NCBI RefSeq assembly: GCF_013371215.1
Contig: NZ_JABWMH010000003.1
Span: 310,001-374,000 of the forward strand
DNA: 64,000 nt
Direction of reading: 5' to 3'
Origin: Parasphingorhabdus flavimaris
Lineage (GTDB): Bacteria > Pseudomonadota > Alphaproteobacteria > Sphingomonadales > Sphingomonadaceae
Positions 12,706 to 31,492 of the stretch are shown piece by piece; positions within the stretch are counted from its first letter, which is position 1; each line of letters begins with the position of its first letter. The translations under genes and the position numbers were made by a program. The notes under the pieces were generated by a model. That model worked only from the letters and a program-made list of their open reading frames with translations, did not search any database and was not told the DNA's origin.

Positions 12706-12718
12706 CGGTGATGAGCAT

Positions 12719-15611: not shown

Positions 15612-16765
15612 AATCGCTGATAATCATTCTCGCGGTCGGTGTATCCGCACCTGCAATGGCGCAACATCAAGGCCATGACATGAGCATGCCAGGGATGACA
15701 ATGCCCGCGCCAAAAGCAAAGCCCGAACCAAAGCCAACGCTAAAACCCAAGCCTGCGTCTGTTGCGCCGAAGCCCGCGCTTGCCAAACCACAAGCCAAGG
15801 CTGCGCCAAAAGCCAAGCCTGCAAAAATTCAGCCCGGCCCTCCCAACACGGTCCCCACCGAAGCGCCAATGGTGATGGACCATGGTAGCATGGATCATAG
15901 TCAAATGGACGAGCAGCCAGCGATGGCGGATATGGATCATTCGACAATGGATCATGGCCAGATGGATCATGAAGCTATGGATATGCCAGGTAATGACATG
16001 GCCGATATGACGGCGCCCATGGCTGACGAAACACCTCCTCCCGAAGCTGGTAGAGGGCCTGCGCGTGCTGCCGATGCGATATGGGGAGCTGACGCTATGA
16101 GCGGCTCCAGGAAGCAGCTGGCGGCGGAAAATGGCGGCATGAAAACGCTTTGGGTGATGGCTGATCGCGCTGAATATCGTGTGCGAGATGGCAAGAACGG
16201 CTACTTGTGGGACGGTCAGGGCTATTATGGCGGCGATATCGACAAATTCTGGTTCAAGAGCGAAGGCGAAGGCAATTTCGGCGAAAAGATAGAAAGCGCA
16301 GAGGTGCAGGCGCTATGGAGCCATGCCATTGCACCATTTTTCGATTTGCAAGCGGGCGTGAGGCAGGATTTTGCGCCGCGCGACCGGACCTATGCAGTTA
16401 TTGGAATACAGGGTCTTGCGCCTTACCTGTTCGAAATCGATGGGGCAGCATTTTTGTCTGACCGGGGCGATTTGACTGCGCGCTTCGAGGCTGAATATGA
16501 CCAGCGCATAACGCAGCGACTGATCCTGCAACCCCGCGCAGAACTCAATCTTGCGGCGCAGGATGTTCCTGAATTGGGGATTGGCGCGGGGATCGATGCT
16601 GCTGAACTGGGAATACGCTTACGATATGAATTTGCCCGCGAGTTTGCGCCCTATATCGGCATCGAACAGGAATGGAAAGTTGGGCAAAGCGCCAGATACG
16701 CGCGGGCGGGCGGAGAAGATCCCAGCGTCACCAATTATGTTATCGGGATTAGATTCTGGTTCTAA
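15608..16765 (+). CDS. copB: Copper-resistance outer-membrane protein CopB/PcoB
   Basis: Outer-membrane protein paired with the multicopper oxidase. The 385-residue product has a signal peptide (MKSLIIILAVGVSAPAMA), then a long low-complexity region (about 20-155) with Lys-Pro-Ala repeats (PKAKPEPKPTLKPKP) and Met/His motifs (MDHGSMDHSQMD). The conserved C-terminal beta-barrel domain follows (about 155-385: YRVRDGKNGYLWDGQGYYGG, and ending VTNYVIGIRFWF with a terminal Phe, the usual outer-membrane signal). The Lys-Pro segment resembles a periplasm-spanning stretch. It is co-translated with the oxidase through an ATGA overlap. Confidence 0.95.
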   Translation: MKSLIIILAVGVSAPAMAQHQGHDMSMPGMTMPAPKAKPEPKPTLKPKPASVAPKPALAKPQAKAAPKAKPAKIQPGPPNTVPTEAPMVMDHGSMDHSQMDEQPAMADMDHSTMDHGQMDHEAMDMPGNDMADMTAPMADETPPPEAGRGPARAADAIWGADAMSGSRKQLAAENGGMKTLWVMADRAEYRVRDGKNGYLWDGQGYYGGDIDKFWFKSEGEGNFGEKIESAEVQALWSHAIAPFFDLQAGVRQDFAPRDRTYAVIGIQGLAPYLFEIDGAAFLSDRGDLTARFEAEYDQRITQRLILQPRAELNLAAQDVPELGIGAGIDAAELGIRLRYEFAREFAPYIGIEQEWKVGQSARYARAGGEDPSVTNYVIGIRFWF

Positions 16766-16773
16766 TATTTTTA

Positions 16774-16782
16774 GGGGGGGGG
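16774..16782 (+). repeat. Nine-G homopolymer in the ribosome binding site of the next gene
   Basis: Nine consecutive G form part of the Shine-Dalgarno region, which ends three bases before ATG 16786. A tract of this length can slip during replication; changes would shift the spacing between the ribosome binding site and the start codon. No other G tract this long was noticed in the window. Confidence 0.85.
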
Positions 16783-16785
16783 AGT

Positions 16786-17259
16786 ATGGAATATATTGGT
16801 TTGGCGCTAATTTTGACGCTTTCTACAATTTCTTATCAAGCTGTGGCGCACGATAAAGACGCAGAATCTGCATCTATGATGGGGACACCTGAAAGCACGC
16901 TCGAAGCATATCGAAGCGGCATAGAAAGTCTCGATGATACCAATATGCCCCGCCTATTCACGGATGACGCGCTGGTATTTGAAAATGGAAAAGCGGAGGG
17001 CAGCTTTAGCAATTATCTTGCCCATCATCTCAGTCCTGAACTCAAAGAGTTTGAGAGCTTTACATTCAACAATGAGACTATCGATATATCTGTCATAGGT
17101 GAAACAGCAATCGCCTGGGAAACCTATACATATACGATAGTGCTAAAGGATGGCCGGATTATCGAAAGGCAAGGCGTTGCCACTGCGGTTCTCGTGAAAC
17201 GAGACGAAAGCTGGAAAATTGCTCAATATCACTCATCTTCCCGCACGCCCAAGAAATAG
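16786..17259 (+). CDS. Exported NTF2-like (SnoaL/DUF4440-type) protein
   Basis: The 157-residue product has an N-terminal signal (MEYIGLALILTLSTISYQAV) and a cone-shaped NTF2-like domain. The cues are TLEAYRSGIESLDDTNMPRL, LFTDDALVFENGKAEG and AVLVKRDESWKIAQYHSSSR, the standard start, middle and final strands of this fold. The family includes small enzymes and binding proteins; nothing shows a specific substrate. Homologues are often found in copper and silver resistance clusters beside PepSY proteins. It follows copB by 20 bases in the same direction and is preceded by a nine-G tract in its ribosome binding site. Confidence 0.85.
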   Translation: MEYIGLALILTLSTISYQAVAHDKDAESASMMGTPESTLEAYRSGIESLDDTNMPRLFTDDALVFENGKAEGSFSNYLAHHLSPELKEFESFTFNNETIDISVIGETAIAWETYTYTIVLKDGRIIERQGVATAVLVKRDESWKIAQYHSSSRTPKK

Positions 17260-17306
17260 CATGGCAAGACAGCAATAAAACCGATGCCTTTTTGGGAGGA
17301 GATAGC

Positions 17307-18035
17307 GTGACACAAAAGACCCATATACGGGCGAGTAAAATTCATAAATGGCTCGCGCTCTTTATCGGTGCACAGTTGCTGCTCTGGTTTGCAAGCGGCG
17401 TTATTATGAGCGTTGTGCCAATCGAGACGGTCCGCAGCGAACATCTTGTCGCGCGAGAGCCTGAACAACTCAATAGCCTTGTTGGGCTAGTGACACCTGA
17501 AAATTTGGGTCGCGAAATATCGGGGAACGTGGTTTCCTTGCGATACCGTAGTGTCTTAGGCAGGCCTGTTGCTGAACTTGAAAATGGGCGAGGCGAGACA
17601 TTCCTTTACGATGCCAAAACGGGCATCAAACGTAGCCAAATAACGTCAAAAGAAGCCGGGTTAATAACGTCTCGCGCTTGGATAACCGGTCGCCCCAATA
17701 TTGCGGCCGTCGAAAAGGTTGTGACCGGCTCCACAGAATATCGAGGCGCGCTTCCTGCTTGGCGAGTTGATACCGAGGATGACGTTTCTGTCTATATTCC
17801 GCTATCGACTGGCGAGATTGCAGCGGTGCGTAGCACAACTTGGCGTGTTTATGATTTCTTCTGGGGTCTGCATATCATGGACTGGAAAAACCATGAGAAT
17901 TTCAACAGCTGGTGGCTCGTCATTTTTGCATTGGGCGGCCTGACTATGGCTCTTTCTGGATTGTTACTCATCATTAAGCGATGGCCGTTTCGGCGAAGTC
18001 GTAAGGGCCGGAACCTTCACACTACTCACGCGTAG
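17307..18035 (+). CDS. PepSY-domain membrane protein
   Basis: Start GTG 17307 is set by GGAGGAG just upstream. The 242-residue product has a short cytoplasmic start (HIRASKIHKWLALFIGAQ) leading into the first membrane segment (about 14-38). A periplasmic PepSY region follows (about 45-190, with FLYDAKTGIKRSQITSKE). WGLHIMDWKNHENFNSWW precedes the second membrane segment (about 208-228). This is the layout of PepSY-associated TM proteins, including those linked to iron reductases. The role is not known; in copper clusters they are thought to handle redox or metal transfer. It lies between the NTF2-like and DUF305 genes in one probable operon. Confidence 0.88.
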   Translation: MTQKTHIRASKIHKWLALFIGAQLLLWFASGVIMSVVPIETVRSEHLVAREPEQLNSLVGLVTPENLGREISGNVVSLRYRSVLGRPVAELENGRGETFLYDAKTGIKRSQITSKEAGLITSRAWITGRPNIAAVEKVVTGSTEYRGALPAWRVDTEDDVSVYIPLSTGEIAAVRSTTWRVYDFFWGLHIMDWKNHENFNSWWLVIFALGGLTMALSGLLLIIKRWPFRRSRKGRNLHTTHA

Positions 18036-18086
18036 TCTGGCCGTATTAAAAACACTTGCGCCTGATAAAAATAGGGAGAGGAAAAC

Positions 18087-18611
18087 ATGGGTAAATACAC
18101 ACGTTTCATCGTCATGATACTGACTTCAACGCTTGCGATGTTCGGGCTGATGTATCTCAACACCTATGCATTCGACCACGTATATTTTAGTGAGACACGC
18201 ACATGGATGGCAATCTACATGGGCGCTGCGATGGCGATTATCATGTTGTTATTTATGCTTGGCATGTATGATGATAAGCGCAAGAATGCGATGATATTGG
18301 GCGGCGCAGTTCTCATATTTGCCGGCTCCTTGTTTCTTGTCCGATCGCAGGATACGGTTTCCGATCAGGCGTGGCAAAAGGCGATGATACCTCATCATAG
18401 CATTGCCATACTGACAAGTGAGCGCGCCAATATTGAAGATAAAAGAGTGCGCGAGCTAGCCGATGGAATTATCAGAGCCCAACGGAGAGAAATCAAAGAA
18501 ATGGAATGGTTGATCAACGATATCAATCAAAATGGCAAGGCAACGACAGATGCAGAAGCCTCGGCGCGCGCCGTCCCAAAATTTGAAGGCGAGCTAAATC
18601 CCGCCGACTAA
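18087..18611 (+). CDS. DUF305-domain membrane protein
   Basis: The 174-residue protein has three membrane segments (about 7-28, 40-60, 68-88) followed by a shortened DUF305 domain (about 92-155). The cues are DQAWQKAMIPHHSIAILTSE and LADGIIRAQRREIKEMEWLI, the two conserved helices with their paired His and Met-Glu signature. DUF305 proteins belong to the ferritin-like family and are common in copper and silver resistance islands. The N-terminal three-TM arrangement is seen in many of these. It is the last gene of the rightward copper operon that begins at 13788 or earlier. Confidence 0.92.
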   Translation: MGKYTRFIVMILTSTLAMFGLMYLNTYAFDHVYFSETRTWMAIYMGAAMAIIMLLFMLGMYDDKRKNAMILGGAVLIFAGSLFLVRSQDTVSDQAWQKAMIPHHSIAILTSERANIEDKRVRELADGIIRAQRREIKEMEWLINDINQNGKATTDAEASARAVPKFEGELNPAD

Positions 18612-18920
18612 CGCTAATGCTCACATCATTACAAACGTCCGAGTAGTTATCTATAAAGCCATTTTTTTCTGATGCCCGTCTGTTAGTTCTGATGTTGGAT
18701 CAATATTGAGAGTTGAGCTGCTGTAGTTGCGAAGATTGAAACTATATGGTTGGAGATGCTAACCGTAGACTAGCAAGCGGTGCCTGCTTCCACTCAACTG
18801 AACATTGGAAGCCGCCATATCGCCAACGGCCCAATAGCAGTCGGTCCGATACGCGCCCATTTGAAGACATTAGCGTCTGGGCTGCCATAACCCGATAGCG
18901 GGCCTAAGGCCGAGCCATAT
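18612..18920. other. Intergenic region between the convergent DUF305 and merR genes
   Basis: No coding frame is convincing here. The part from 18718 to 18817 matches a second copy at 21745-21844 and is listed as a repeat. The stretch 18860-18910 is GC-rich with short inverted bits (GCGTCTGGGC, CCCGATAGCGGG) but no clear terminator with a T-run. Confidence 0.6.
18718..18817 (+). repeat. Left copy of a 100-bp direct repeat bracketing the mer module
   Basis: Aligned without gaps to 21745-21844, about two-thirds of positions agree, and the last 18 bases (GAACATTGGAAGCCGCCA) are identical. Both copies are in the same orientation and lie just outside the mercury genes, one on each side. This could be the trace of a mobile cassette or two members of a dispersed intergenic repeat family. 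Confidence 0.75.
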
Positions 18921-19319
18921 TCAGTGAAACATTGCATCAACGATGGCGCAGTCCGGGACTTCTCCGCCATCGCATTTCTGCGCCATGTCCGACAATGTTT
19001 GCTCCAAACGTTTCAGGTCGGATATTTTCTGTTGAATAGTGGTAATGTGATTGTTGGTTACGGCCAGCACTTCGCCGCACGTATATTCGTTGGAATCGAC
19101 CAGGCCGAGCAGGCCTCTCAGCTCTGCAATTGAAAAACCGAGTTCCCGTGCGCGCAGAATGAAGCGTAACCGCGCCTGATCATCGGACGAATAGACCCGG
19201 TGACCACTGCTCGTGCGATCTACGGCGCGTAACAGCTCGATATTCTCGTAATACCTTATCGTTTCGATGTTACATCCGGCGATTTTCGCCAGTTTTCCGC
19301 GCTTGACAGATGGTTGCAT
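18921..19319 (-). CDS. merR: MerR-family metal regulator, mercury type
   Basis: A 132-residue regulator with an N-terminal winged-helix domain (LAKIAGCNIETIRYYENIEL, then GHRVYSSDDQARLRFILRAR), a dimer helix, and a metal loop. Three Cys fit mercury sensing: one in NEYTCGEVL and the pair in KCDGGEVPDCA. The gene is divergent from merT, with 64 bases between. The shared interval holds a dyad CTGTAG-TTA-CTACAG in a 19-base spacer, the signature of MerR-activated promoters. ATG 19319 has AAGGA upstream. It probably represses and activates the merTP-reductase operon. Confidence 0.92.
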   Translation of the reverse strand: MQPSVKRGKLAKIAGCNIETIRYYENIELLRAVDRTSSGHRVYSSDDQARLRFILRARELGFSIAELRGLLGLVDSNEYTCGEVLAVTNNHITTIQQKISDLKRLEQTLSDMAQKCDGGEVPDCAIVDAMFH

Positions 19320-19328
19320 AAAAAGTCC

Positions 19329-19359
19329 TTGTTCCTGTAGTTACTACAGAGAGTATAGT
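19329..19359 (+). promoter_or_regulatory. MerR-activated promoter of the mer operon
   Basis: A -35 like TTGTTC (19329-19334) and a -10 like TATAGT (19354-19359) are separated by exactly 19 bases. The spacer contains the dyad CTGTAG (19335-19340) and CTACAG (19344-19349). The long spacer with a central dyad is the hallmark of promoters that MerR proteins unwind on metal binding. It points toward merT and lies just upstream of merR on the other strand. Confidence 0.88.
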
Positions 19360-19383
19360 CGTCTCCATCGAAGATCAATCGCA

Positions 19384-19782
19384 ATGAAAGAGTATATTTT
19401 GCCAGGGACTATCCAGACAGAAATGCCTGCTCCATCACCGGACAAACGCAGTTGGTGGGCTGTTGGCGGCATCTCCGGGGCTATATTGGCATCGTCCTGC
19501 TGCATCGCACCACTCGTCCTTGTAACACTTGGAGTTAGCGGAGCGTGGATCGGAAATCTAACTGCGCTCGAACCCTATAAGTGGTATTTTGTGTCAGTGA
19601 CCCTCGGGTTTCTGGCTGCGGGTTTTTGGCATGTCTATTTTCGGACAAAACCTGCCTGTGAAGAAGGCTCATATTGTGCCCGACCACAATCCACCATCGT
19701 CACGAAAACCGCTCTCTGGGTGGGAACATTGCTCATCGCTCTATCCATCACAATCGATTGGTGGGCACCGTATTTTTATTAG
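19384..19782 (+). CDS. merT: Mercuric transport protein MerT
   Basis: Inner-membrane Hg(II) importer. From ATG 19384 the product has 132 residues with three membrane segments (about 23-42, 62-82, 109-126). The key Cys pair is in ILASSCCIAPLVLVTLG in the first segment, and a second Cys pair is in the loop (KPACEEGSYC) as in MerT. The upstream ORF extension has no ribosome binding site. It is the first gene of the mer operon and precedes merP by ten bases. Delivered Hg(II) would pass to the reductase-like protein encoded downstream. Confidence 0.93.
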   Translation: MKEYILPGTIQTEMPAPSPDKRSWWAVGGISGAILASSCCIAPLVLVTLGVSGAWIGNLTALEPYKWYFVSVTLGFLAAGFWHVYFRTKPACEEGSYCARPQSTIVTKTALWVGTLLIALSITIDWWAPYFY

Positions 19783-19792
19783 GAGAAAGATT

Positions 19793-20146
19793 ATGAAACC
19801 TGCTTACATCATTTTTACAGTCGTTGTCGCTCTTGGAGCAGGCGGACTGGGAGCGGTGGCATTGTTGCCGACGTCCGGTGCTCAAGCCGTTGCAGAAGCG
19901 GCATCTCAGAATGCCCCAAAAACTGAAACATTCGATATCGAAAAAATGACCTGCGCCGCCTGTCCGATTACAGTCAAGAAGGCGATGGGCAAGGTCAGCG
20001 GCGTGTCTTCTGTCGATGTCGATTTTCAGGCAAAAACCGCAACAGTGACCTTTGATCCCAAACTGGCAAATGCATCCGCAATTGCTTCTGCATCGACCAA
20101 CGCCGGTTATCCAGCCAGCATAGTGGCTGATGGAGCGGATCGCTGA
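19793..20146 (+). CDS. merP: Periplasmic mercury-binding protein MerP
   Basis: Start ATG 19793 is fixed by AGGAGAAAG. The 117-residue product has a signal peptide (YIIFTVVVALGAGGLGAVAL) and an HMA domain (about 42-112) with the metal site KMTCAACPITVKKAM, the usual GMTCxxC form. It would bind Hg(II) in the periplasm and pass it to MerT. The stop codon TGA overlaps the next start (TGATG) by one base, which couples it to the GDCCVxC protein. Confidence 0.93.
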   Translation: MKPAYIIFTVVVALGAGGLGAVALLPTSGAQAVAEAASQNAPKTETFDIEKMTCAACPITVKKAMGKVSGVSSVDVDFQAKTATVTFDPKLANASAIASASTNAGYPASIVADGADR

Positions 20147-20364
20147 TGCAGCCTCAATCCAGATTGACCTGCCCTGATTGCGGGCATCAGGAAACCGAGA
20201 CCATGCCGACCGATGCCTGTCAGTTCTTCTATGACTGCAAGGGGTGCAAGATTGTTTTGCGACCCAATGCGGGCGATTGCTGTGTCTACTGCTCCTTTGG
20301 CACCGTTCCGTGTCCGCCCATTCAGGAGGCTCAGGCATCTGGCGCAATCGCGTCCTGTTGCTGA
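20146..20364 (+). CDS. GDCCVxC-domain Cys-rich protein of the mer operon
   Basis: A 72-residue Cys-rich protein with the signature AGDCCVYCSFGTVPCPP, as in the GDCCVxC family often found in mer operons. Some family members have selenocysteine at one position; here all are Cys codons. A zinc-ribbon-like pair of CxxC motifs is also seen (LTCPDCGHQE and YDCKGCKIVL) and the chain ends in CC. The function is not known; mercury binding or delivery is the likely role. It is tightly coupled to merP (TGATG) and is followed 16 bases later by the flavin oxidoreductase gene. Confidence 0.85.
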   Translation: MQPQSRLTCPDCGHQETETMPTDACQFFYDCKGCKIVLRPNAGDCCVYCSFGTVPCPPIQEAQASGAIASCC

Positions 20365-20379
20365 GATTGAGGGATTCAA

Positions 20380-21738
20380 ATGGAAACACAAAAATTCGAT
20401 CTTGTTGTTCTGGGCGTCGGCATGGCGGCCGTCACCGCGGCTAACAAATGTGCGTCAGCTGGCTGGTCAGTCGCAGTCGTGGACGAGCTACCCTATGGCG
20501 GCACATGTGCCCTTAGAGGATGCGACCCCAAAAAGATGTTGAGGCGCGGCGCCGAAATATTCGACGCTGCTTCCTTGATGAAGGGCAAGGGCATAGAGCC
20601 CGGCAGCCTGGCTATCAACTGGTCGGACCTGATGGCGTTCAAGCGGACATTCACGGAAAAAATGCCGCCAAAAATAGAATCTGGACTCGATGTGAACGGT
20701 GTCACCACGTTGCACGGCAGCGCAAAATTTATCGGCAAAAATAAAATCGAGATTAGCGGTAATACGCTGCTGGAAGCGAAGAAGGTGCTGATTGCTACAG
20801 GTGCAAAGCCCCGAAAAATTGATTTGCCTGGGGCGCAGTATCTCATTGATAGCACAGAGTTTCTGGAACTGGAGAGCCTCCCGAAAAAGATCTTGTTTGT
20901 CGGTGGCGGGTTCATCTCCTTCGAGTTCGCTCATATCGCGGCGCGCGCGGGCAGCGACATTCAGATCATTGATCGCGGCGAGCGTGCGCTCAAGGGATTT
21001 GATCCCGATCTTGTCGATAAATTGCTGGAGCGAAGCAAAGAGGCAGGAATCGAGGTGGTTCAGAAGACCAGTCTCGTCTCCATCGCCCAAGAAGGTAGCG
21101 GCTATTCGGCTACCCTTGATGTCGACGGCAACACGCAAAAATATTCGGTTGATCTGATCGTGCATGGCGCGGGGCGCGTTCCTGCGATCGACTATCTCGA
21201 TCTGGACAAGGCGGGCGTCGATTCCAGCGCCCACGGCGTCAAAGTGAATGAATTTCTGCAAAGCATCTCCAATCCGTCAATTTATGCAGCGGGTGATGCG
21301 GCGGACACCAAAGGTGCACCGCTCACGCCGGTGGCCGTGTTTGAAGGCAAGGTGGCTGCGTCAAATATGCTGAAAGGCAATCATGCCAAACCGGACTATA
21401 AAGGCGTTCCCACAGTGGTATTTACGATACCCGAACTGGCGCGCGTGGGCATGCTGGAAGAAGAAGCAAAAGCGGCCGGTTACAAGCTGCGCATCGCGAC
21501 AAACGATACAAGCGGCTGGTATTCCAATCTTCGGGTGGGGGAGACCTGCGCTGCAACCAAAGTCATCATCGACGATGAAACCGACAAGATATTGGGCGCG
21601 CATTTGCTGGGGCCGGAATATGCCGAAATCATCAATTTCTTCAGTCTGGCGATGCGGCTTGATTTGACCACCAGCGACCTGAAAAAAATGGTGAGCGCCT
21701 ATCCATCGGTTGGTTCCGATATTGGCTCGATGTTGTGA
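20380..21738 (+). CDS. MerA-like FAD/NAD(P) disulfide oxidoreductase lacking MerA C-terminal Cys
   Basis: A 452-residue pyridine nucleotide-disulfide oxidoreductase. FAD binding is at VVLGVGMAAVTAANKC, the redox Cys pair is in GGTCALRGCDPKKML (CxxxxC), the NAD(P) fold is at ILFVGGGFISFEFAHIA, and a second FAD motif is IYAAGDAADTKG. The last residues read AYPSVGSDIGSML. True MerA ends with a vicinal Cys pair that takes Hg(II), which is absent here, and the HPT-E catalytic site of dihydrolipoyl and glutathione reductases is also replaced (AYPS). No N-terminal HMA domain is present. The position in the operon suggests mercury or thiol metabolism; the real substrate is unclear. Confidence 0.88.
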   Translation: METQKFDLVVLGVGMAAVTAANKCASAGWSVAVVDELPYGGTCALRGCDPKKMLRRGAEIFDAASLMKGKGIEPGSLAINWSDLMAFKRTFTEKMPPKIESGLDVNGVTTLHGSAKFIGKNKIEISGNTLLEAKKVLIATGAKPRKIDLPGAQYLIDSTEFLELESLPKKILFVGGGFISFEFAHIAARAGSDIQIIDRGERALKGFDPDLVDKLLERSKEAGIEVVQKTSLVSIAQEGSGYSATLDVDGNTQKYSVDLIVHGAGRVPAIDYLDLDKAGVDSSAHGVKVNEFLQSISNPSIYAAGDAADTKGAPLTPVAVFEGKVAASNMLKGNHAKPDYKGVPTVVFTIPELARVGMLEEEAKAAGYKLRIATNDTSGWYSNLRVGETCAATKVIIDDETDKILGAHLLGPEYAEIINFFSLAMRLDLTTSDLKKMVSAYPSVGSDIGSML

Positions 21739-21744
21739 GGTAAA

Positions 21745-21844
21745 CTGCTATAACTTTGAAGATCGAAATTAAATCGTTGGAGGTCGTTAAAGTGAACAAA
21801 CCGATGACCTCTGCTTTCGCACAACCGAACATTGGAAGCCGCCA
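21745..21844 (+). repeat. Right copy of the 100-bp direct repeat bracketing the mer module
   Basis: This copy starts seven bases after the oxidoreductase stop codon and ends with the same 18 bases (GAACATTGGAAGCCGCCA) as the left copy. The remaining interval up to 21984 (end of the convergent mntP gene) has no gene I can support. Confidence 0.75.
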
Positions 21845-21984
21845 GTCTGAAATGCGTCCAGTTGTTGTCGTTCCCGCGATCTGTTCTCGATACTGAAAGC
21901 TGAATTTCAGCGTATCAAACTTGCAGTCGCAGCCAAGATACACTGAAAATATAATCTCAGATCAATTGGCTTTATCCAAGGTAG

Positions 21985-22533
21985 CTAGTGTTCGACGAAG
22001 ATTTTGATTCCCAGGCCAATGAGAATGACGCCTCCTGCGACTTCGGCATGTCTCCCGATGCGCGAGCTTGCCATTCCGCCGATCATCACGCCCAAGCTGG
22101 AAAGCAAAGCTGTAACTGTCCCAATAATAACACAGGCCAGTAAAACCGGAAGGCCAAGAGCAGGCAGCATGATGCCGGCAGCAAAGGCGTCTATGCTCGT
22201 TGCTATCGCAGCCGTTCCCAGCGCCCAGCCTGAGAGACTGGACACCGCATCTCTTTCGTTCCTGCCCAGCGCTTCCCAAAGCATTTTTAACCCTAAACCG
22301 CTGAGCAGAATGAGAGCAATCCAGTGATCATAAGCGCTGATCTCCGAAACAAAAGCTATTCCAAGGGCCCATCCCAGAAATGGCATGATGCCCTGCGCTA
22401 CGCCAAATGCCATTCCCGTTCGAGTGGCGTGAAACATGGAATTATGTCCTGCAGCCCCTTGAGCAACCGCCACCGCAAAGGCGTCCATCGCCAAGCCCAC
22501 AGCAAGAGCTACAATGAGAAACAGGTTTTCCAT
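21985..22533 (-). CDS. mntP: Manganese efflux pump MntP
   Basis: Inner-membrane Mn(II) exporter of 182 residues with six membrane segments. The two internal repeats each carry the family's acidic motif: LAMDAFAVAVAQGAAG in the first and TSIDAFAAGIMLPALG in the fourth segment, with Asp in place to bind Mn. The C-terminus GGVILIGLGIKIFVEH is typical. Spacing of 21 bases from the end of the dmeF reading frame upstream suggests it belongs to the dmeR-dmeF transcript. No Mn riboswitch (yybP-ykoY) is visible upstream. Confidence 0.95.
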   Translation of the reverse strand: MENLFLIVALAVGLAMDAFAVAVAQGAAGHNSMFHATRTGMAFGVAQGIMPFLGWALGIAFVSEISAYDHWIALILLSGLGLKMLWEALGRNERDAVSSLSGWALGTAAIATSIDAFAAGIMLPALGLPVLLACVIIGTVTALLSSLGVMIGGMASSRIGRHAEVAGGVILIGLGIKIFVEH

Positions 22534-22554
22534 TTAATGCGCTTTCCCAGCCGT

Positions 22555-23514
22555 CTAAGCTGGATTCACTTCCACGGTGATATGAGAAAGCCCCACGGTT
22601 TCGGCCAGTCTCTCGCGATAAACAGCGGGGGCTGTATCACTTTCCGTAATGACTGCTACAATAGCGGCATGGTGTCCTGGACCCAGTTGTCAGACATGCA
22701 GGTCGGAGATTTTGTCTCCAGCTTCCTCGATGATCGAGCGGATTTTTGCTGAGACTGGGTCGCCCGCTTTTCTGTAATCCAGCATCGTTGAGCCGGTATC
22801 GCGCATCAAACCCCATGACCAGCGCGCAATGACAAGCGAACCGACGATACCCATGAGCGGGTCAAGCCATATCCATCCGTAGATGCTGCCGGCTATCAGC
22901 GCAATTATTGCCAATACCGATGTTAGAGCATCAGCCAGCACATGGAGATAAGCAGCGCGCAGATTTTGGTCCCGGCCATGGTGTTCAGCATGATGGTCGT
23001 GATCGTGGCTATGATCGTGATGATGGCTGTCCCCATGATGATGATCATGATCGTCGCGGAGAAACCAAGCACTGACCAGATTCACAATTAGGCCAATGAT
23101 GGCCACGAAGATTGCCTGGGGGAAGCTGATCGGGATCGGATTTGCCAGTCTGACGACACTTTCCCATCCTATCAGTAGCGCAACCAACGCCAGAACAATT
23201 GCGCTGGCGAAAGCTGCAAGGTCCCCCACCTTGCCGGTGCCGAATGTGAAGCGGGGGTTCTTGGCATTGCGGCGTGCATATAGATAGGCGAGCGCAGCGA
23301 TCAGCATCGCAGCGGCGTGCGTGGACATATGCCAGCCATCGGCGACCAGCGCCATCGAACCGTAAATTGTCCCGGCTGCAATCTCGACAACCATCATCAC
23401 GCTGGTCAGGGCAATAACGAACCAGGTCCGGCGTTCGTTCCGTTCGTGATTTTGGCCTAAAAATACGTGATCATGTTCGTGTCCGGCTTGAGTTGCAGCT
23501 TCGGAGGTTATCAT
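22555..23514 (-). pseudogene. dmeF: DmeF-type CDF metal exporter, interrupted by an in-frame TGA
   Basis: Co/Ni/Zn proton antiporter of the CDF family. The frame opens at 23514 and gives a normal protein: the metal site in LVADGWHMSTHAAAML, a long His loop between segments (HDHHHGDSHHHDHSHDHDHH) and LHVLADALTSVLAI. It then meets TGA at 22692-22690. The same frame continues for 44 more residues to a TAG at 22557-22555, reading QLGPGHHAAIVAVITESD and ending HITVEVNPA. This is the ordinary C-terminal domain. The TGA stands where the conserved Trp of DLHVWQLGPGH is expected, so TGG became TGA. The truncated 274-residue protein keeps all membrane segments but loses most of the cytoplasmic domain. 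Confidence 0.88.
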
Positions 23515-23786
23515 TTCAAATATGTCCGGATAACCTGGATCAGATCTGTCGCGCCTTGAGCGCGCGCTTCATCAGTGTCCGTTTCAGGATTGGAGACATG
23601 TTCGCGGACATGATCCTCAATCAATTCCACGGTAAGCCCATTTACGGCTCCTCGAACCGAGGCGACAAGATTGAGTATCTCACCGCAAGGAGCCTTGTTT
23701 TCCAAAGCCCGCTCAATGGCTTCTAGTTGCCCTTTAAGGCGGCTGACGCGCGCCAGAAGCTTTTTATCATCCGATGTATGTGACAT
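23511..23786 (-). CDS. dmeR: DmeR/RcnR-type metal-sensing repressor
   Basis: A 91-residue repressor of the CsoR/RcnR family. RcnR/DmeR-type Ni/Co ligands are present: His3 (MSHTSD), the Cys in NKAPCGEIL, and the His pair in IEDHVREHV. The CsoR Cu(I) pattern is absent. The stop overlaps the dmeF start by four bases (ATGA), so sensor and exporter are co-translated, as in dmeRF operons of alphaproteobacteria. A G-tract dyad lies immediately upstream of its ATG, so it probably represses its own operon. No Shine-Dalgarno is seen ahead of ATG 23786, which suggests a leaderless message. Confidence 0.9.
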   Translation of the reverse strand: MSHTSDDKKLLARVSRLKGQLEAIERALENKAPCGEILNLVASVRGAVNGLTVELIEDHVREHVSNPETDTDEARAQGATDLIQVIRTYLK

Positions 23787-23789
23787 AGC

Positions 23790-23806
23790 ATAGGGGGCTA
23801 CCCTAT
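23790..23806. promoter_or_regulatory. DmeR/RcnR-type operator ATAGGG-GGCTA-CCCTAT
   Basis: Perfect six-base arms flank a five-base centre, and the left arm continues into a five-G run. The site begins four bases upstream of the dmeR ATG on the opposite strand. On the minus strand TATAGGGT could serve as a -10 element, so the operator would cover the promoter and transcription would start near the ATG. Confidence 0.75.
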
Positions 23807-23906
23807 ATTCTGAATTTTGTAAAGGACCTGTTGAATCGCAATAGATTATGTCCCCCGTCAGCGATTGATTGAGTGTTCATCGCGTTGGCTTGGCGTGGCA
23901 GTGGTT

Positions 23907-24575
23907 TTAGATGTATTGCGCATCTGTTCTACTATTTTTCAATAGCCACAAACAGCACCAACTGAGCCCAAAAATCCAACCGCCCAGCACATCGCTTGGC
24001 CAATGGACGCCCAAGGCAATCCTCGACGTGCCGATCAAGACAGCCAATAATAGCGCACCACAAATCAGGGAAAAACGTGCATATCGGCCTGGCACGAGTT
24101 TAAATAGCGCCAGTGCGGTAAGGATATAGGCGATAGTCGAGTTCGCGGCATGGCCGCTTGGAAAACTCGCTGAATTGGGAACAGAAAGATATTCTACAAT
24201 CGCAGGTCGCGGCCTGCCGAAAAAATCTTTTAATAAGGATACTGCCCAAAATCCACTGAGAGACAAAGCGGGCAACAAGAATGCATTGAAATAGGCTTTT
24301 TTGGCGATCAGAAAGAATGATACGGCAAATATGACCAGAAGCAGGAAGGTTGAATCTCCCAAAAAGGTGATATTGCGGACAAATTGGAGCAGCCAGTCCG
24401 GGCCCATCAGTATATCCGAATTTCTCGGCGATCGAAAAGCAAGCAAAAGGGTTCTATCTATTGCATCTAAATGACCTTTCGCCACCTTCGACCAGAATAC
24501 CAAGAAAATTCCGGCTAGAATGAATGATGGTATCAATTCGAAACCGCGCTGAAATATCTTTAGACGAACGCTCAT
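23907..24575 (-). CDS. PAP2-family membrane phosphatase
   Basis: A 222-residue integral membrane protein with about six membrane segments. The three PAP2 catalytic motifs are present: KDFFGRPRP, SFPSGHAAN and SRIALGVHWPSDVLGGW, giving the Lys-Arg-Pro, Ser-Gly-His and Arg-His-Asp residues of the acid phosphatase site. It would dephosphorylate a lipid phosphate such as undecaprenyl diphosphate or phosphatidic acid; the substrate cannot be told from sequence. It is the last gene of the leftward czc operon (126 bases after the P-type ATPase). Confidence 0.9.
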   Translation of the reverse strand: MSVRLKIFQRGFELIPSFILAGIFLVFWSKVAKGHLDAIDRTLLLAFRSPRNSDILMGPDWLLQFVRNITFLGDSTFLLLVIFAVSFFLIAKKAYFNAFLLPALSLSGFWAVSLLKDFFGRPRPAIVEYLSVPNSASFPSGHAANSTIAYILTALALFKLVPGRYARFSLICGALLLAVLIGTSRIALGVHWPSDVLGGWIFGLSWCCLWLLKNSRTDAQYI

Positions 24576-24701
24576 ATCTTCACTCGTTTTTTGCGTTTTG
24601 GGTCAACCCTGCTTGATTGCATTAAACTCGGCTCAAATCTGATATTCAACAGGCTCTCGCTCTTCCATCCATGAGCACGACCGGCATGATGGCCGCACCG
24701 A

Positions 24702-26693
24702 TTAACTTTCCTTATATCCCAGCAGCCGCAAGGCATTTATGACCACGACAAGCGTCGATCCTTCATGCATCACGACAGCGGGGCCGATCCCCAGGCCGAA
24801 GAGTGTTGCCGGGATCAATACGGCCACCACGCCGAGACTGATCCAAAGATTTTGACGGATAATGCTACTTGTCGATCTGCTGAGACCAACGGCAAAAGGC
24901 AATGTTGCCAGATCATCTGCCATTAACGCGATATCTGCCGTTTCAAGCGCGACATCGGAACCGGCGGCTCCCATGGCTATTCCAACAGTCGCATTTGCCA
25001 TCGCGGGGGCATCGTTCACACCATCACCAACCATCGCCACTCCGCCCTGATCGCTCAGTTGAGCAATTTTCTCGACCTTGTCATCCGGCATTAGGTCACC
25101 AAAGGCTTCGTCAAGACCTACTTCCAGGGCGATCGCGTCGGCGACTTTCTGATTGTCGCCAGAAATCATCATCATCCGTGAGATTCCAATAGACCGGAGC
25201 TTGTTTATCACTTCGGACGCTGCAGCGCGGGGCGTATCCATGAGGCCGAGAACGCCAATAAATTTGCCGCCACGCCTGACAATCATGGTGGTGCGACCGC
25301 GTGAAGACATTTCGGTGACTTTTTGGGCGACATCTTCAGGAAGCGAATCCTGATCATCGTCGAGAAACAGCCCCGCTTTTCCTATCAAGACCTTTTCGCC
25401 ATTGATTTTGGCAGTAACGCCTTTGCCCGTTATGCTCTGAAAATTTGTAGCGATCAGATCCGATGATCCGAGGCGTTTTTCTGCAGCACGCACAATAGCT
25501 TGCGCCAGAGGGTGATCACTATGCACTTCGACAGCGGCAGAAATAGCGATGAGTTCGTCTGCTCCAATTTCTCCGAAAGGCACCGTTTCGACTAACTCCG
25601 GTTCGCCAATCGTAAGGGTCCCGGTTTTGTCAAAAGCGATCGAATCAAGCTTACCCAGCATCTCGAGAGGCGCGCCGCCCTTTATGAGAACGCCGCCCCG
25701 CGCTGCACGGGCAATCCCGCTTAAAACAGCGCTGGGTGTTGCAATAGCCAGCGCACAGGGGCTGGCGGCAACGAGGACTGCCATCGCCCTGTAAATGCTA
25801 TCGGAGACTGGCTCGTCTATCACCAACCAAGAAAATCCAGTTGCGATTGCAAGCAGAATGACAACCGGCACAAAAATCCGCTCAAACTTATTGGTGAAGC
25901 TCTGCGTTGGCGATTGACGCGTCTCCGCATCGTTCACCATTTCGACAACCCGGGCCAATGTGGTTTCCGACGCCAATCGGGTGACTTGCACTTCGAGGCT
26001 ACCGCTTCCGTTTATGGATCCGGCGAAAACCCTATGTTCGGATTTGACTTTATCGGCTGCTTTGGCCGCCGCTGCAGCATTGTCGACCGGACGCTTGTCG
26101 ACCGGGACGCTCTCACCGGTTATGGGAGCCTGGTTGACGCTGCTCGCCCCTTTGACAACAAAACCGTCTGCTGGAAGTCGCTCGTTGGAGCGGATGATTA
26201 CAATATCGCCGATTACCAACTCGGCCACGGGCAATCGCAATTCCTCTCCATCCCTGCGGACCACCGCCTCCTCGGGAGCAAGGTCAGACAGTGCGGATAT
26301 GGCATTGCGCGCGCGGGCCATTGCATAATTTTCAAGTGCATGGCCGATGCTGAACAGGAATAATAGAAATGCTCCCTCTGCCCATGCCCCGAGCCACGCC
26401 GCCCCGCCGGCGGCAACGATCATGAGAAAATCTATTTCAAATTTTCGATTTCTGATTTTTTCGAAGGCTTCCAATATCGTAAAATAGCCGCCGAAAAAAT
26501 AGGCCGCTACCAAAAACCAGAACCCAATATTCGCCGGCAGAAGATTGATTTTTGGTCCCAGCCATCCGGCAAGAAGGGTTGCACCGCAAAGGCCTGCAAA
26601 TACCATTTCTGCACGGCCACCAAGCAGCCTGTCGATTAGCCCTCCGTGCGAGTGATCCGAATTTTCCGAATGCTTGCTGTGCTCATCGGTCAT
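24702..26693 (-). CDS. P1B-4-type heavy-metal ATPase (SPC motif, cobalt/zinc class)
   Basis: A 663-residue P-type metal exporter. The intramembrane metal site is ASPCALAIATP: Ser-Pro-Cys defines the P1B-4 class (CoaT/CtpD), associated with Co, Zn or Fe export, unlike the CPC of copper pumps. The C-terminal HEGSTLVVVINALRLL is the matching TM motif. The phosphorylation site DKTGTLTIGEP, the ITGESVPVDK loop and the hinge GDGVNDAPAM are intact. No N-terminal metal-binding domain exists, only a His-bearing tail (SKHSENSDHSHGG). Its start overlaps the DUF190 stop by four bases, and it lies downstream of czcCBA, so an efflux team for divalent metals is likely. Confidence 0.95.
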   Translation of the reverse strand: MTDEHSKHSENSDHSHGGLIDRLLGGRAEMVFAGLCGATLLAGWLGPKINLLPANIGFWFLVAAYFFGGYFTILEAFEKIRNRKFEIDFLMIVAAGGAAWLGAWAEGAFLLFLFSIGHALENYAMARARNAISALSDLAPEEAVVRRDGEELRLPVAELVIGDIVIIRSNERLPADGFVVKGASSVNQAPITGESVPVDKRPVDNAAAAAKAADKVKSEHRVFAGSINGSGSLEVQVTRLASETTLARVVEMVNDAETRQSPTQSFTNKFERIFVPVVILLAIATGFSWLVIDEPVSDSIYRAMAVLVAASPCALAIATPSAVLSGIARAARGGVLIKGGAPLEMLGKLDSIAFDKTGTLTIGEPELVETVPFGEIGADELIAISAAVEVHSDHPLAQAIVRAAEKRLGSSDLIATNFQSITGKGVTAKINGEKVLIGKAGLFLDDDQDSLPEDVAQKVTEMSSRGRTTMIVRRGGKFIGVLGLMDTPRAAASEVINKLRSIGISRMMMISGDNQKVADAIALEVGLDEAFGDLMPDDKVEKIAQLSDQGGVAMVGDGVNDAPAMANATVGIAMGAAGSDVALETADIALMADDLATLPFAVGLSRSTSSIIRQNLWISLGVVAVLIPATLFGLGIGPAVVMHEGSTLVVVINALRLLGYKES

Positions 26694-27028
26694 TTCTGTT
26701 CTGCCGCTCGCGTGAGAACATCAACCTTTTCGAGGCTGACTAGCCCGATCCCCCGCAGATCGTCTAGCTGAGTGTAGAAATCTTCCAGTCGTGCCCGGGC
26801 ATCGATTATTTCGATCACCACCGGTGGATTATCGCCAATTCCGAACGCGTGATGTTCATGAACAATGGAAGACGAGGAGAACCCCAATATTCCTTTCAGG
26901 ACGGTGCCTCCGCGAAGGCCATAAGATCTGGCCCGATCAATAATGGTGGTAACAACTGTCTCGTCCCCATGCATTGCGGCTTCATCGGTATAAATCCGCA
27001 TGAGTGATATTTGTTGCGGCTTTTGCAT
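26690..27028 (-). CDS. DUF190 protein (PII-like fold)
   Basis: A 112-residue DUF190 protein; this family has a PII-like ferredoxin fold. The typical features are LMRIYTDEAAMHGDETVVTT, YGLRGGTVLKGILGFSSSS, the H-EHH-F segment and PPVVIEIIDARARLEDFY. DUF190 proteins are often placed next to CrcB fluoride channels or metal exporters; their ligand is not established. Here it is between czcA (13 bases away) and the P1B-4 ATPase (four-base overlap), so it may control pump activity through a small-molecule or metal signal. Confidence 0.92.
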   Translation of the reverse strand: MQKPQQISLMRIYTDEAAMHGDETVVTTIIDRARSYGLRGGTVLKGILGFSSSSIVHEHHAFGIGDNPPVVIEIIDARARLEDFYTQLDDLRGIGLVSLEKVDVLTRAAEQK

Positions 27029-27041
27029 TATGCACTCCTTC

Positions 27042-30000
27042 TCATTCTGGCTTTGGACGGAAACGTTGCAGGATTGGAAATTTGTCCAAAGAGGGCGTGA
27101 ATCGCTTGATATGCGGCCTCAAATCGGGAAATTCGCGCTCAAGCATCAACCGTGTCACGGCGGGCAACACGAAAAGCGTCAAAATCGTTGCGGTGATCAA
27201 ACCGCCGATAACCACGATCGCCAACGGCTTTTGCACCTCAGCGCCTGTGCCAGTCGCGATTGCCATCGGAACGAAGCCCAATGACGGCACGATGGCTGTC
27301 ATCAGAATGGACCTGTAGCGTTCGACTGCGCCAGAGTAGATGGCCTCAACCAATTCCACGCCAGATTCAAGACGCCCCTGAATGGCGGTCATCATCACAA
27401 GTCCATTGAGCACCGCCACGCCGGCCAGAACAATAAAGCCCACAGCAACCGAGATAGAGAATGGCAGACCCGTTGCTGCTAGCGAGAATATCCCGCCTGC
27501 AATTCCCAGAGGGACTGTGACAAATACTGCGGCAGCCATACGGAAGTTACCGAGAGCCATGACCAGCAGACCAAAGATCAACAGCGCTATGACAGGAACA
27601 ACAAGATTGATTCTTGCCTGAGCGGCCTGCAGGCTTTCAAATTGCCCGCCCCATTCGAGGATGACTCCTGATGGTAGAGCGACATCGCGCTCAATTTGGG
27701 ACTTCGCTTCGTTCACAAAGGAGCCAACATCGCGGCCTCGAACATTGAGCTGCACAACAACGCGCCGCTGTCCGTTTTCCCGGCTGATCTGATTGAGGCC
27801 TTCGGTTTCTTTCAGGGTAGCCAAGGATCGGAGTGGAACCGACGACCTTTTCCCGAAACCATTTTCCGGCAAAATAACTGGTAGCGCTCCGATAGCGTCG
27901 ATATCGTTACGCACTTCGCCAGGTAGCCTCACAACAATATCAAACCTGCGGTCGCCCTGAAATACCAGCCCGCTTTCGGCGCCGCCCAATGCGGCGCTGA
28001 CGGTTGCGGCCACTTCATCAACGGTGAGACCATGGGCTGCAATTGCCGAATTATCGAATTGCACGTCCAATGTCGGAAAGCCCTCGGTTTGCTCGACGCG
28101 GACATCCGCAGAACCTTCAATACCCGAAAAAACGGTCGCAAGCTGATTGGCAGTGGCCGACAGCTGCTCGAGGTCGTCGCCAAATACCTTGACGGCAACA
28201 TCACCCCGCACACCTGCAATCAACTCATTGAAACGCATTTCAATGGGCTGACTGAACTCGTAATTCTGGCCGATGAGATTGGCTAGTTTCGCTTCCATCT
28301 GTTCCACCAGCTCTGTCTTTGAAAGCGACGGGTCGGGCCATTCATCTTTCGGACGCAAAATGATAAATGCATCGGAAATATTGACCGGCATGGGATCGCT
28401 GGCCACTTCAGCTGTTCCGGTTTTTGAATACATGAAGCGGACCTGTGGAAATTTGGAAATCTCCCGCTCGATCTGTTTTTGCATTGAAACAGATTGATCC
28501 AGCGAAGTGGACGGTATTCGGATCGATTGAAGGGACAGATCCTGTTCGTCGAGTTGCGGCATGAACTCGCTACCGAGAAAGCCGAACATACCGATCGACA
28601 GTCCAAATACGGCAAGGCCTGCCAAGGTTGCCCGTCCGGGCCATTTCAGTGCTTTTCGTAATGCCGGTTCGTATTTGCTTTTGCTCCAGCTCACCATCCG
28701 AACCTCTTTTTCAGAAACACGGCCGCTTATCAGCAGAGCCAATAATGCCGGGACCAAGGTCAGTGAGAGAATAAACGCCGATATGAGCGCAAGCATTACG
28801 GTGATGGCCATCGGCGAGAAGGTCTTTCCTTCAACACCCTGGAAGGTGAGCAATGGCACGAAAACCAGCAAAATTATCGCCTGGCCAAATAGCGAAGGCC
28901 TGATCATTTCTCTTGTTGATGCGATCACTTCTTCCAGTCGTTCGCCTAGAGATAGAAGTCGCCCTTCTTCATGTTGCCGGCCTGCCATCCGGCGCAGGAA
29001 ATTTTCCACGATGATAACACTGCCGTCAACGATCAAGCCGAAATCAAGAGCGCCCAAGCTCATGAGATTTCCCGAAACGCCAAATCGATTCATGCCGATT
29101 GCCATCATCACAAAGGAAACGGGAATGACGAGCGCGGTAATCAGCGCTGCCCTGAAATTGCCAAGGAGCAGGAATAGCGCGACGATAACCAACAAAGCTC
29201 CCTCGGTCAGGTTTTTTTCAACCGTGCTGATAGTCGCATTGACCAGTTTCGAACGGTCCAGAACGACTTCTAATTTTATGTTGGGAGGCATTGTCTTGAC
29301 GATTTCTGCAAGCCTTTCACCGGTTGCAGCGGCAACCGCACGGCTGTTTTCACCAAGCAGCATCAATGCGGTTCCGACAACGACTTCTTCGCCATTCTCG
29401 GTTGCCGCGCCGGTTCGCAAATCGCCGCCATTGCTGACGGATGCAACGTCACGGACGCGAACAGGAATGCCTTCGCGTGTCGCGATGATCGAATTTTCAA
29501 TTTCTTCCAGCGATTTGAGTCGTGCGTCTGCCCGCACCAGAAATGCCTCTCCGCCGCGTTCAACGAAGTTTGCGCCAACAGAAAGATTGACCCTTCCAAG
29601 CGCTTCGGAAAGATCGTCAAAACCGATACCGTAGGAAGAAAGCCGAGCCGCCGAGGGGGTAACGACAAATTGTTTGGCGTAACCACCAATCGAGTCAACA
29701 CCAGCGATGCCCTTGACGTTGCGCAATTGCGGTCCGATTACCCAGTCTTGAAGCGTGCGTAGATACGCCGCCTTTGAGACTTCATCGTTCAAGCGTTCAC
29801 CTTCGGGAGTCAGGTATGAACCATCAGATTGCCAGCCAGAACCGCCCGCAGCTTTTCCTTTTTCAAATGGCTCGTAGCTGACCGTCCACATCAAAACCTC
29901 GCCAAGCCCTGTGGATACCGGTCCCATTGCCGGTTCGGCAGTGGCCGGCAGGCTATTGCGAACAGTGGTCAGTCTTTCGGCCACCTGTTGACGAGCAAAG

Positions 30001-30311
30001 TAGACGTCGGCGCTATCGTCGAATATCGCCGTAACCTGCGAAAAGCCGTTCCGGGAGATGGATCGGGTCGTCTGCAGTCCCGGAATGCCCGCCAGCGATG
30101 TTTCAACCGGATAAGTCACCAAGCGTTCAATATCGAGCGGTGAGAGAGTAGGGTCGACAGTGTTGATCTGGACCTGATTATTGGTGATGTCAGGGACAGC
30201 ATCAATTGGCAGATTAACCAGATTAAAGACTCCGAGTGCCGCGACTGCAGCAAGAAACAATACGGTAAGATACCGATTGCGGACGGACATTTCGACGAGA
30301 CGTGCAATCAT
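27042..30311 (-). CDS. czcA: CzcA-type heavy-metal RND efflux pump
   Basis: Full-length 1089-residue RND pump for divalent metals (Co/Zn/Cd). The N-terminus MIARLVEMSVRNRYLTV and the charged TM4 motif ALDFGLIVDGSVIIVEN (the DFGxxVDGxVVxxEN form) identify the HME1 (CzcA) class, in contrast to the CusA-type pump at the left edge. Twelve membrane segments and two large periplasmic loops are expected, and the lengths fit. It follows czcB by 28 bases and is followed by DUF190 after 13 bases, in one leftward operon. Specificity between Zn, Co, Cd and Ni cannot be fixed from sequence. Confidence 0.97.
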   Translation of the reverse strand: MIARLVEMSVRNRYLTVLFLAAVAALGVFNLVNLPIDAVPDITNNQVQINTVDPTLSPLDIERLVTYPVETSLAGIPGLQTTRSISRNGFSQVTAIFDDSADVYFARQQVAERLTTVRNSLPATAEPAMGPVSTGLGEVLMWTVSYEPFEKGKAAGGSGWQSDGSYLTPEGERLNDEVSKAAYLRTLQDWVIGPQLRNVKGIAGVDSIGGYAKQFVVTPSAARLSSYGIGFDDLSEALGRVNLSVGANFVERGGEAFLVRADARLKSLEEIENSIIATREGIPVRVRDVASVSNGGDLRTGAATENGEEVVVGTALMLLGENSRAVAAATGERLAEIVKTMPPNIKLEVVLDRSKLVNATISTVEKNLTEGALLVIVALFLLLGNFRAALITALVIPVSFVMMAIGMNRFGVSGNLMSLGALDFGLIVDGSVIIVENFLRRMAGRQHEEGRLLSLGERLEEVIASTREMIRPSLFGQAIILLVFVPLLTFQGVEGKTFSPMAITVMLALISAFILSLTLVPALLALLISGRVSEKEVRMVSWSKSKYEPALRKALKWPGRATLAGLAVFGLSIGMFGFLGSEFMPQLDEQDLSLQSIRIPSTSLDQSVSMQKQIEREISKFPQVRFMYSKTGTAEVASDPMPVNISDAFIILRPKDEWPDPSLSKTELVEQMEAKLANLIGQNYEFSQPIEMRFNELIAGVRGDVAVKVFGDDLEQLSATANQLATVFSGIEGSADVRVEQTEGFPTLDVQFDNSAIAAHGLTVDEVAATVSAALGGAESGLVFQGDRRFDIVVRLPGEVRNDIDAIGALPVILPENGFGKRSSVPLRSLATLKETEGLNQISRENGQRRVVVQLNVRGRDVGSFVNEAKSQIERDVALPSGVILEWGGQFESLQAAQARINLVVPVIALLIFGLLVMALGNFRMAAAVFVTVPLGIAGGIFSLAATGLPFSISVAVGFIVLAGVAVLNGLVMMTAIQGRLESGVELVEAIYSGAVERYRSILMTAIVPSLGFVPMAIATGTGAEVQKPLAIVVIGGLITATILTLFVLPAVTRLMLEREFPDLRPHIKRFTPSLDKFPILQRFRPKPE

Positions 30312-30339
30312 AGCCGTTGCTCCAATGGGAATGTATTAA

Positions 30340-31491
30340 TCAATGTTCTGCTTCGCCGCGGCCAAGTTCAGATTTCAGGAGAAAGGCGTTTTTACCGGCG
30401 ATTTGTTCGCCGGACTTGAGACCGTCGACAATCTCGATTCTACCGCCGCTCTTCGCTCCGGTCGTAACGGACCGTGCACGGAAACCAGATTTGGTCTTTA
30501 CAAACACGACGTTGCGTCCTTCGACGGATTGGACAGCCTCTGCGGGAACAATCAATGCCGTAGACTGATCGCTTGTCGCCTGCTGAAGTATCCGCACCCG
30601 CACATATTCTCCGGGGACGAGTCTGGCGCCTGAAGCAGGGGCAAGCACGACAATGGCCGCTCTGTTTTCCGGATCGGCAGCTGGCGTAACCGCCAATACC
30701 CGAGCGGAGATTTCACCCTCGGGCGTTTCGACCGTGGCCGCTGCTCCAGTGCTGATCTTGCGCGCATCTTCCGCAGGAACTGCCGCCTCAATTTGAATAA
30801 GGTTCGGATTGGCGATACGGAAAAGCTCATCCTGTGCGGTGACATAGGAGCCGAGAATTGCCGGGCTTGACGTTATTCGGCCGCCAATCGGTGAGCGCAC
30901 AGCAATAAATCGTCCGCTGACACCTGACGCAGTGGCCGCCTGGCTTGCCCGTCTTGCTTCTGCGGCAGCCTGTTGATTTTCTGCTCTCGCCGTTTCAAGA
31001 TCTGCCCGTGCGGTGATTTTCTCATCGAAGAGGCGCTGCTCACGGTTCAGCTGCGACCGGGCAAGCGCGGCCCGAGAAGCTGCCGATGTAACTTCGGAAC
31101 TAATTGCGGCGGCTTCGCGGCTCTCTATGGTAGCTACTGTCTCGCCGCGCCGAACCGCATCTCCCAACCTCTTTTTGATGTTCGTGACCCTGCCTTCAGC
31201 GCCTGCACTCAATATGGCCTGCCCTTGGGGAGACGGTGCAACACTACCCTGCGCAATAATCTCGGCATCAAGCGAACTTGGAGCCACATCGAATATTCCG
31301 ATTTCAGAGGCGCGCAGCTGTTCTTCTGTCATTTCGACAACGCCCTCTTCTTCGGAATGATTTTCTTCTGTGGTGTTGGCAGCGCCCTGATTTTCCGCGC
31401 TACCGCCGGTTGAGCCATTGAAAATTACTCCCAGCACAACCGCAAACGCGATGGCCAGGCCAGCGATTATGATCCATTTTCTGTTGTTCAT
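30340..31491 (-). CDS. czcB: CzcB-type RND periplasmic adaptor
   Basis: A 383-residue membrane fusion protein for CzcA. It has one N-terminal membrane anchor (about 5-25, KWIIIAGLAIAFAVVLG), a Gly/Glu-rich linker (ENHSEEEGVVEMTEEQLRAS), a lipoyl half with NIKKRLGDAVRRGETVATIE, a coiled-coil hairpin (about 120-180), and beta-barrel and membrane-proximal domains (EIVDGLKSGEQIAGKNAFLL). No CusF-like extension is present. The neighbours are a small membrane protein two bases upstream and czcA 28 bases downstream. Confidence 0.95.
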   Translation of the reverse strand: MNNRKWIIIAGLAIAFAVVLGVIFNGSTGGSAENQGAANTTEENHSEEEGVVEMTEEQLRASEIGIFDVAPSSLDAEIIAQGSVAPSPQGQAILSAGAEGRVTNIKKRLGDAVRRGETVATIESREAAAISSEVTSAASRAALARSQLNREQRLFDEKITARADLETARAENQQAAAEARRASQAATASGVSGRFIAVRSPIGGRITSSPAILGSYVTAQDELFRIANPNLIQIEAAVPAEDARKISTGAAATVETPEGEISARVLAVTPAADPENRAAIVVLAPASGARLVPGEYVRVRILQQATSDQSTALIVPAEAVQSVEGRNVVFVKTKSGFRARSVTTGAKSGGRIEIVDGLKSGEQIAGKNAFLLKSELGRGEAEH

Positions 31492-31492
31492 T

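Follow-up and report, generated by a model that had tools for sequence, protein, structure and literature searches.

The dmeF gene of Parasphingorhabdus flavimaris, which encodes an exporter of the His-rich Co/Ni CDF family, has probably suffered a recent, private nonsense mutation, leaving a truncated exporter that is most likely unstable or inactive; the gene itself is best seen as either a pseudogene of very recent origin or a weak allele. The mutation lies in the window, by which we mean the whole stretch of 64,000 nucleotides that was analysed, and concerns the following features.

22690-23514, minus strand: dmeF up to the premature TGA (274 amino acids, comprising all six membrane helices and the beginning of the C-terminal domain)
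22690-22692, minus strand: premature TGA at codon 275, an invariant Trp position (Trp in 34 of 35 loci, the remaining one being the window's own copy)
22555-22689, minus strand: remainder of dmeF, untranslated or rarely translated (44 sense codons and the ordinary TAG)
23511-23786, minus strand: dmeR, metal-sensing repressor (Trns_repr_metal; Pfam PF02583, 74.4 bits)
21985-22533, minus strand: mntP-like gene for a putative Mn efflux pump (Pfam PF02659, 139.9 bits)

Including its remainder, dmeF occupies 22555-23514 on the minus strand, with its ATG at 23514. At the stop this strand reads GACCTGCATGTC TGA CAACTGGGTCCA, where the TGA is at 22692-22690, and the frame then stays open for the 44 sense codons (QLGPGHHAAIVAV...HITVEVNPA) up to the TAG at 22557-22555. 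When the TGA is read as W, the protein has 319 amino acids. The NCBIfam equivalog for DmeF, NF033827 (cut-off 250 bits), gives this read-through protein 499.3 bits and matches it over profile positions 1-309 of 309, compared to 439.7 bits and positions 1-266 for the truncated protein. Since the tail raises the score and completes the profile, it is not a chance extension of the frame. The truncated protein itself still exceeds the curated equivalog cut-off, and so belongs to the DmeF family. Sequence and profile therefore agree with an earlier reading of this DNA made from the sequence only, according to which the frame stops at this TGA and then continues into the usual C-terminus.

That sequence-only reading also placed the TGA at a conserved Trp codon, and the homologues bear this out. 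Position 275 is Trp in 90 of the 90 loci that were aligned to the read-through protein, with no stops within the alignment. These loci comprise L005-L014, which are long matches (10 of the 30 loci found in a search of relatives), and the best 80 of 518 loci from a contig scan; the 80 are biased to Trp, as one of the six peptide patterns used in the scan, WQLGPGHH, contains that Trp. The 10 loci from the relatives search, like the genus and family matches, were chosen without a Trp-containing pattern. The set of 35 loci counted in the list above was assembled from genus matches, family matches and fetched genes, which are partly the same genes. In an alignment of 32 rows, drawn largely from the same contig scan, D271, L272, H273, V274, W275, G278, P279 and G280 are invariant. 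The GPG part of the motif DLHxWxxGPGH, which had been put forward for this site, is not universal beyond this alignment, as L011 has WQVSEKH.

Within the genus, a dmeF match (E<=1e-60) is present in 7 of 32 genomes, and six of the seven genes are open, an internal TGA occurring only in the P. flavimaris genome itself. In the family, 98 of the 397 genomes drawn have a match at the same threshold, in 105 rows, 100 of which reach residue 315 or beyond; the other five end between residues 178 and 226 and are uninformative on codon 275. A stop was reported in two of the 105 rows, namely our own copy and that of a genome labelled G276. The latter is rejected as a second interrupted dmeF, because the fetched gene has Trp and is open through residue 317; the TGA reported there is probably its normal end. 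Homologues that naturally stop at codon 275, which the sequence-only reading had itself named as a possible refutation, were looked for in the genus (32 genomes), in the family sample (397 genomes) and among the 90 aligned loci, and none was found. A conserved stop, as programmed UGA readthrough would show, is likewise absent from every other homologue examined.

The closest intact copies of dmeF lie in a block of DNA that is shared, almost unchanged, with other genomes of a collection holding one genome per species, and that contains the features listed here.

1-48995, no strand: part of the block common to genomes G003 and G028, almost unchanged (3 mismatches with G003, 5 with G028)
46887-48872, minus strand: tyrosine recombinase beside the shared right end (Pfam PF00589, 36.8 bits, cut-off 27.1; no matching NCBIfam family)
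39045-41663, plus strand: relaxase-like protein of the MobA/VirD2 type (Pfam PF03432, 29.3 bits, cut-off 24.6; NCBIfam NF041893, 60.5 bits, under the cut-off of 250)
31616, no strand: second private substitution, synonymous (codon 29, third base, in a small frame of the RND-pump region; codon read by hand)

Window positions 1-48,995 are colinear with both G003 and G028, without gaps. The similarity extends leftward beyond the window by 6.9 kb in G003 (4 mismatches in 55,906 bases) and by 3.8 kb in G028, where it comes near the end of the contig (6 mismatches in 52,799), so the block measures approximately 56 kb and has 99.99% identity to G003, and to G028 over 52.8 kb. To its left, colinear pieces of G003 are 75-85% identical (matches over 400 bases). 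A third genome, G015, is 100.0% identical in 2-kb bins from -12000 to 48000, except for 97.4% at 22000 and 99.8% at 30000; its identity is 91.2% in the bin at -14000 and 78-85% in bins further left. The left end of high identity hence varies by relative, lying 6.9 kb before the window in G003 and about 13 kb before it in G015. The right end of similarity is common to G003, G028 and G015, at 48,995 or 48,996, and the sequences differ beyond it.

The block carries a CzcA-type RND pump with its adaptor and outer-membrane partners, two heavy-metal P-type ATPases, a copper-resistance multicopper oxidase and a short CDF. From the domain matches, the identity and the common right end, we interpret the block as a metal-resistance element of an integrative and perhaps mobilizable kind, which would have moved among species recently. 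A search of a plasmid collection with the dmeRF region as query gave no match, and 24 kb of the block gave 12 records, all partial and with 69-82% identity, the best of which (Sphingorhabdus sp. YGSMI21) covers 21% of the 24-kb query. The short CDF (35437-36072, minus strand) has 211 amino acids and ends right past its membrane domain (Cation_efflux, 28-205), with no C-terminal domain. A 690-aa frame at 33504-35576 (minus strand) encodes a cytochrome c domain fused to an FTR1 iron permease domain. At 31492-31702 (minus strand), the genes for the outer-membrane and adaptor proteins of the RND pump are separated by a small frame of some 69 codons, which has a hydrophobic start and contains the private change at 31616.

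The DmeF proteins of G003 and G028 align with 100% identity to all 319 residues of the read-through protein, and have W at codon 275. Intact dmeF genes are thus found in six of the six other genomes of the genus that have the gene, and two of these show 3 and 5 differences, respectively, in the 48,995 bases they share with the window. The near-identity of the block (99.99%) in G003 and G028 makes the change in dmeF a recent one. Compared with G003, G028 and G015, this copy of the block has three private substitutions: the stop itself (22690), the one at 31616 and one at -677, before the window, which is a synonymous third-position change in a long minus-strand frame, also read by hand. For G015 the comparison was made base by base over 12711-32710 and at -677, and elsewhere in 2-kb bins. 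Positions 7686 and 16092 are changed in G028 alone, and the differences at 48992 (G028) and 48993 (G003), which sit at the junction, were left out of the private count. In 19 hand-picked ORFs (28,233 bases), nonsense changes make up 3.4% of all possible substitutions and 2.2% of transitions, and one nonsense change among three substitutions is accordingly a 7-10% event. Random substitution at this frequency means that the stop needs neither selection nor any special cause, and we set selection aside as unneeded.

We modelled the read-through protein with AlphaFold2 (32 sequences; mean pLDDT 73.2, pTM 0.59). The modelled membrane helices span residues 23-51, 54-82, 92-124, 131-152, 183-212 and 217-244, and the C-terminal domain consists of a helix (253-264), two strands (268-278 and 281-290), a further helix (296-303) and a last strand (309-318); pLDDT is about 70 in the block around residue 275. 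In this model the stop cuts the cytoplasmic domain in its first strand. The six membrane helices are all retained, and the strand 281-290, the helix 296-303 and the strand 309-318 are lost. The truncated protein therefore lacks a complete cytoplasmic domain, its profile match ending at 266 of 309 and the stop falling within strand 268-278. The sequence-only reading had offered a recent loss of the cytoplasmic domain as one explanation. Its recency fits a single private substitution in a near-identical block, but the domain is severed within its first strand rather than lost whole. Among characterized CDF proteins, MamM is described as inactive once its last 60 residues, including the last helix and strand, are deleted (PMC4994047), and rice OsMTP8.1 is described as keeping its function in one of seven C-terminal deletions (PMC4995437). 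Judging by these precedents and by the modelled position of the cut, truncated DmeF is probably inactive. This is not certain, since some CDF proteins are reported to have no C-terminal domain (PMC4994047), and one such CDF is encoded in the same block.

We also looked for signs of readthrough, with the UGA being decoded as an amino acid, which was another of the alternatives offered by the sequence-only reading. A pattern search for tRNA-Trp (one mismatch allowed) found one gene, with anticodon CCA, although the same pattern read backwards also gave one chance match in this genome. The tRNA-Trp is identical over 76 bases to its matches in G003, G015, G024 and G028; the survey was confined to tRNA-Trp rather than other possible suppressor tRNAs. 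Release factor RF2 is present (prfB, 503.8 bits, cut-off 370). With an unchanged tRNA-Trp and prfB in place, a reading of UGA as Trp through a changed tRNA-Trp or the loss of RF2 finds no support. None of the nine matches to the selB model in the genome exceeds the cut-off (best 193.2 against 242.25). The tRNA-Sec model gave seven matches, two of them over the gathering score, and ARAGORN calls all seven Ser, Leu, Gly, Tyr or Asn; there is no credible tRNA-Sec among the 150 of 465 first-look candidates that were scored, in a first-look search that also gave matches in all 14 control genomes. Selenocysteine recoding at this UGA is thus not supported. The searches for tRNA-Trp, RF2, selB and tRNA-Sec point neither to a changed code nor to dedicated recoding, and dmeR, too, ends in TGA. 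As background that plays no part in the argument, UGAC terminates weakly in E. coli. Low-level Trp readthrough may occur at the dmeF TGA, with nothing to suggest that it is programmed.

We infer that the TGA is real in the strain and that the function of the gene is lost. On this interpretation, dmeF would have been intact when the block was last exchanged among these bacteria, and one later substitution would have made a TGA of codon 275, the invariant Trp. Translation would then break off in the cytoplasmic domain, within its first beta strand, giving a protein of 274 residues with all six membrane helices and the rest of that domain missing. This protein would most likely be unstable or inactive, which would make dmeF a newly formed pseudogene or an allele of weak function. 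No second lesion that would confirm decay is present in dmeF.

Three other explanations have to be weighed against this recent nonsense mutation. A base-call or consensus error, or a mutation in the cultured stock, would mean that the codon is intact in the wild strain, the TGA being confined to the assembly or stock. The change is indeed a single base in a single assembly, the near-identical copies carry a sense codon, and just three private differences in about 56 kb is a number that errors could reach. However, the assembly, in 8 contigs, is 100% complete with 1.24% contamination, and the remaining two private differences are third-position changes that leave the amino acid unaltered, as is typical of real substitutions. 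Neither point is decisive, and we consider an error or stock mutation unlikely. Leaky decoding, in which the near-cognate tRNA-Trp infrequently decodes the TGA and yields some full-length DmeF without any special signal, strikes us as a poorer explanation still, and improbable. In E. coli, TGA is described as the leakiest stop, read mostly as Trp, and premature stops at one reporter position gave 0.7 to 6% of the signal, TGA giving the highest (PMC11126739). As the ancestral residue is Trp, the product of such decoding would be the normal protein. On the other hand, 14 of 40 TGA reporters in the same report passed the threshold, which shows that context matters (PMC11126739), the tRNA-Trp and RF2 of this genome look ordinary, and nothing supports the idea that a few percent of readthrough would suffice.

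The truncated protein could finally be a working exporter itself, differently regulated and independent of a complete cytoplasmic domain. The six membrane helices retained in the model and the existence of CDFs without a C-terminal domain, such as the one in the same block, speak for this. However, the cut falls inside a strand and part of the domain remains, MamM (PMC4994047) and six of the seven OsMTP8.1 variants (PMC4995437) were inactive after partial deletions, and among 100 family matches reaching residue 315, none but our own was found to stop here. We judge a working truncated exporter very unlikely. Even further down the scale, to the point of being hardly credible, is a tunable attenuator, with mostly truncated DmeF being made and more of the full-length protein appearing under stress by Trp readthrough; if this were true, translation fidelity would control the exporter in addition to DmeR.

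The sequence-only reading had also suggested that the strain is under weak cobalt/nickel pressure. Other metal pumps are present, i.e., the CzcA-type RND pump, the two heavy-metal P-type ATPases and two further CDFs, so it is plausible that redundancy has weakened this pressure, and these pumps may cover the loss of DmeF. However, this explanation is not specific, since G003 and G028 share the same pumps and block and have an intact dmeF.

The gene resembles the dmeRF operon of Sinorhizobium meliloti, whose dmeF mutant is described as more sensitive to cobalt and nickel (PMC6044271), in its family (NF033827), in the order dmeR then dmeF, and in its His-rich loop. The HX3H (62-66) and HX3D (191-195) sites are kept, with His and Asp invariant in the 32-row alignment. 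It differs in the stop at codon 275, which takes away most of the cytoplasmic domain, and in the mntP-like gene that follows. Like CDFs without a C-terminal domain, the truncated protein would have six membrane helices and no complete cytoplasmic domain, but its domain is cut in the first strand by a recent mutation, and is not absent by descent. With a single private substitution, near-identical intact copies and no second lesion, the case matches ordinary young pseudogenes in accessory genes, and we found no difference from these. It is ordinary recent gene damage. As biology it is minor: damage to one exporter, dated after the spread of a shared metal-resistance block. In practice, a family search scores the truncated DmeF well over the cut-off, and could report a working exporter. 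Near-identical blocks that differ by one stop also offer a clean natural comparison of whether DmeF needs its cytoplasmic domain.

The frame of dmeR is open and has a full-length match to Pfam Trns_repr_metal, which upholds the earlier statement that the sensor looks intact; its own stop is a TGA that overlaps the ATG of dmeF. The mntP-like gene starts 21 bases past the ordinary stop of dmeF, and is presumably co-transcribed with it. A scan for promoters and terminators over 21900-24000 gave 3 and 3 sites, respectively, compared to 1.6 and 1.8 in shuffled sequences, and was given no weight. At the dmeR-dmeF junction, 537 bases (23035-23571) account for 51 of the 56 positions at which the window and the G015 locus (L122) differ over 20 kb, and we read them as a short recombination tract. 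The seven sequences compared did not reveal a donor; in 701 bases around the tract, identity to G024 is 93.2% for G015 versus 91.7% for the window.
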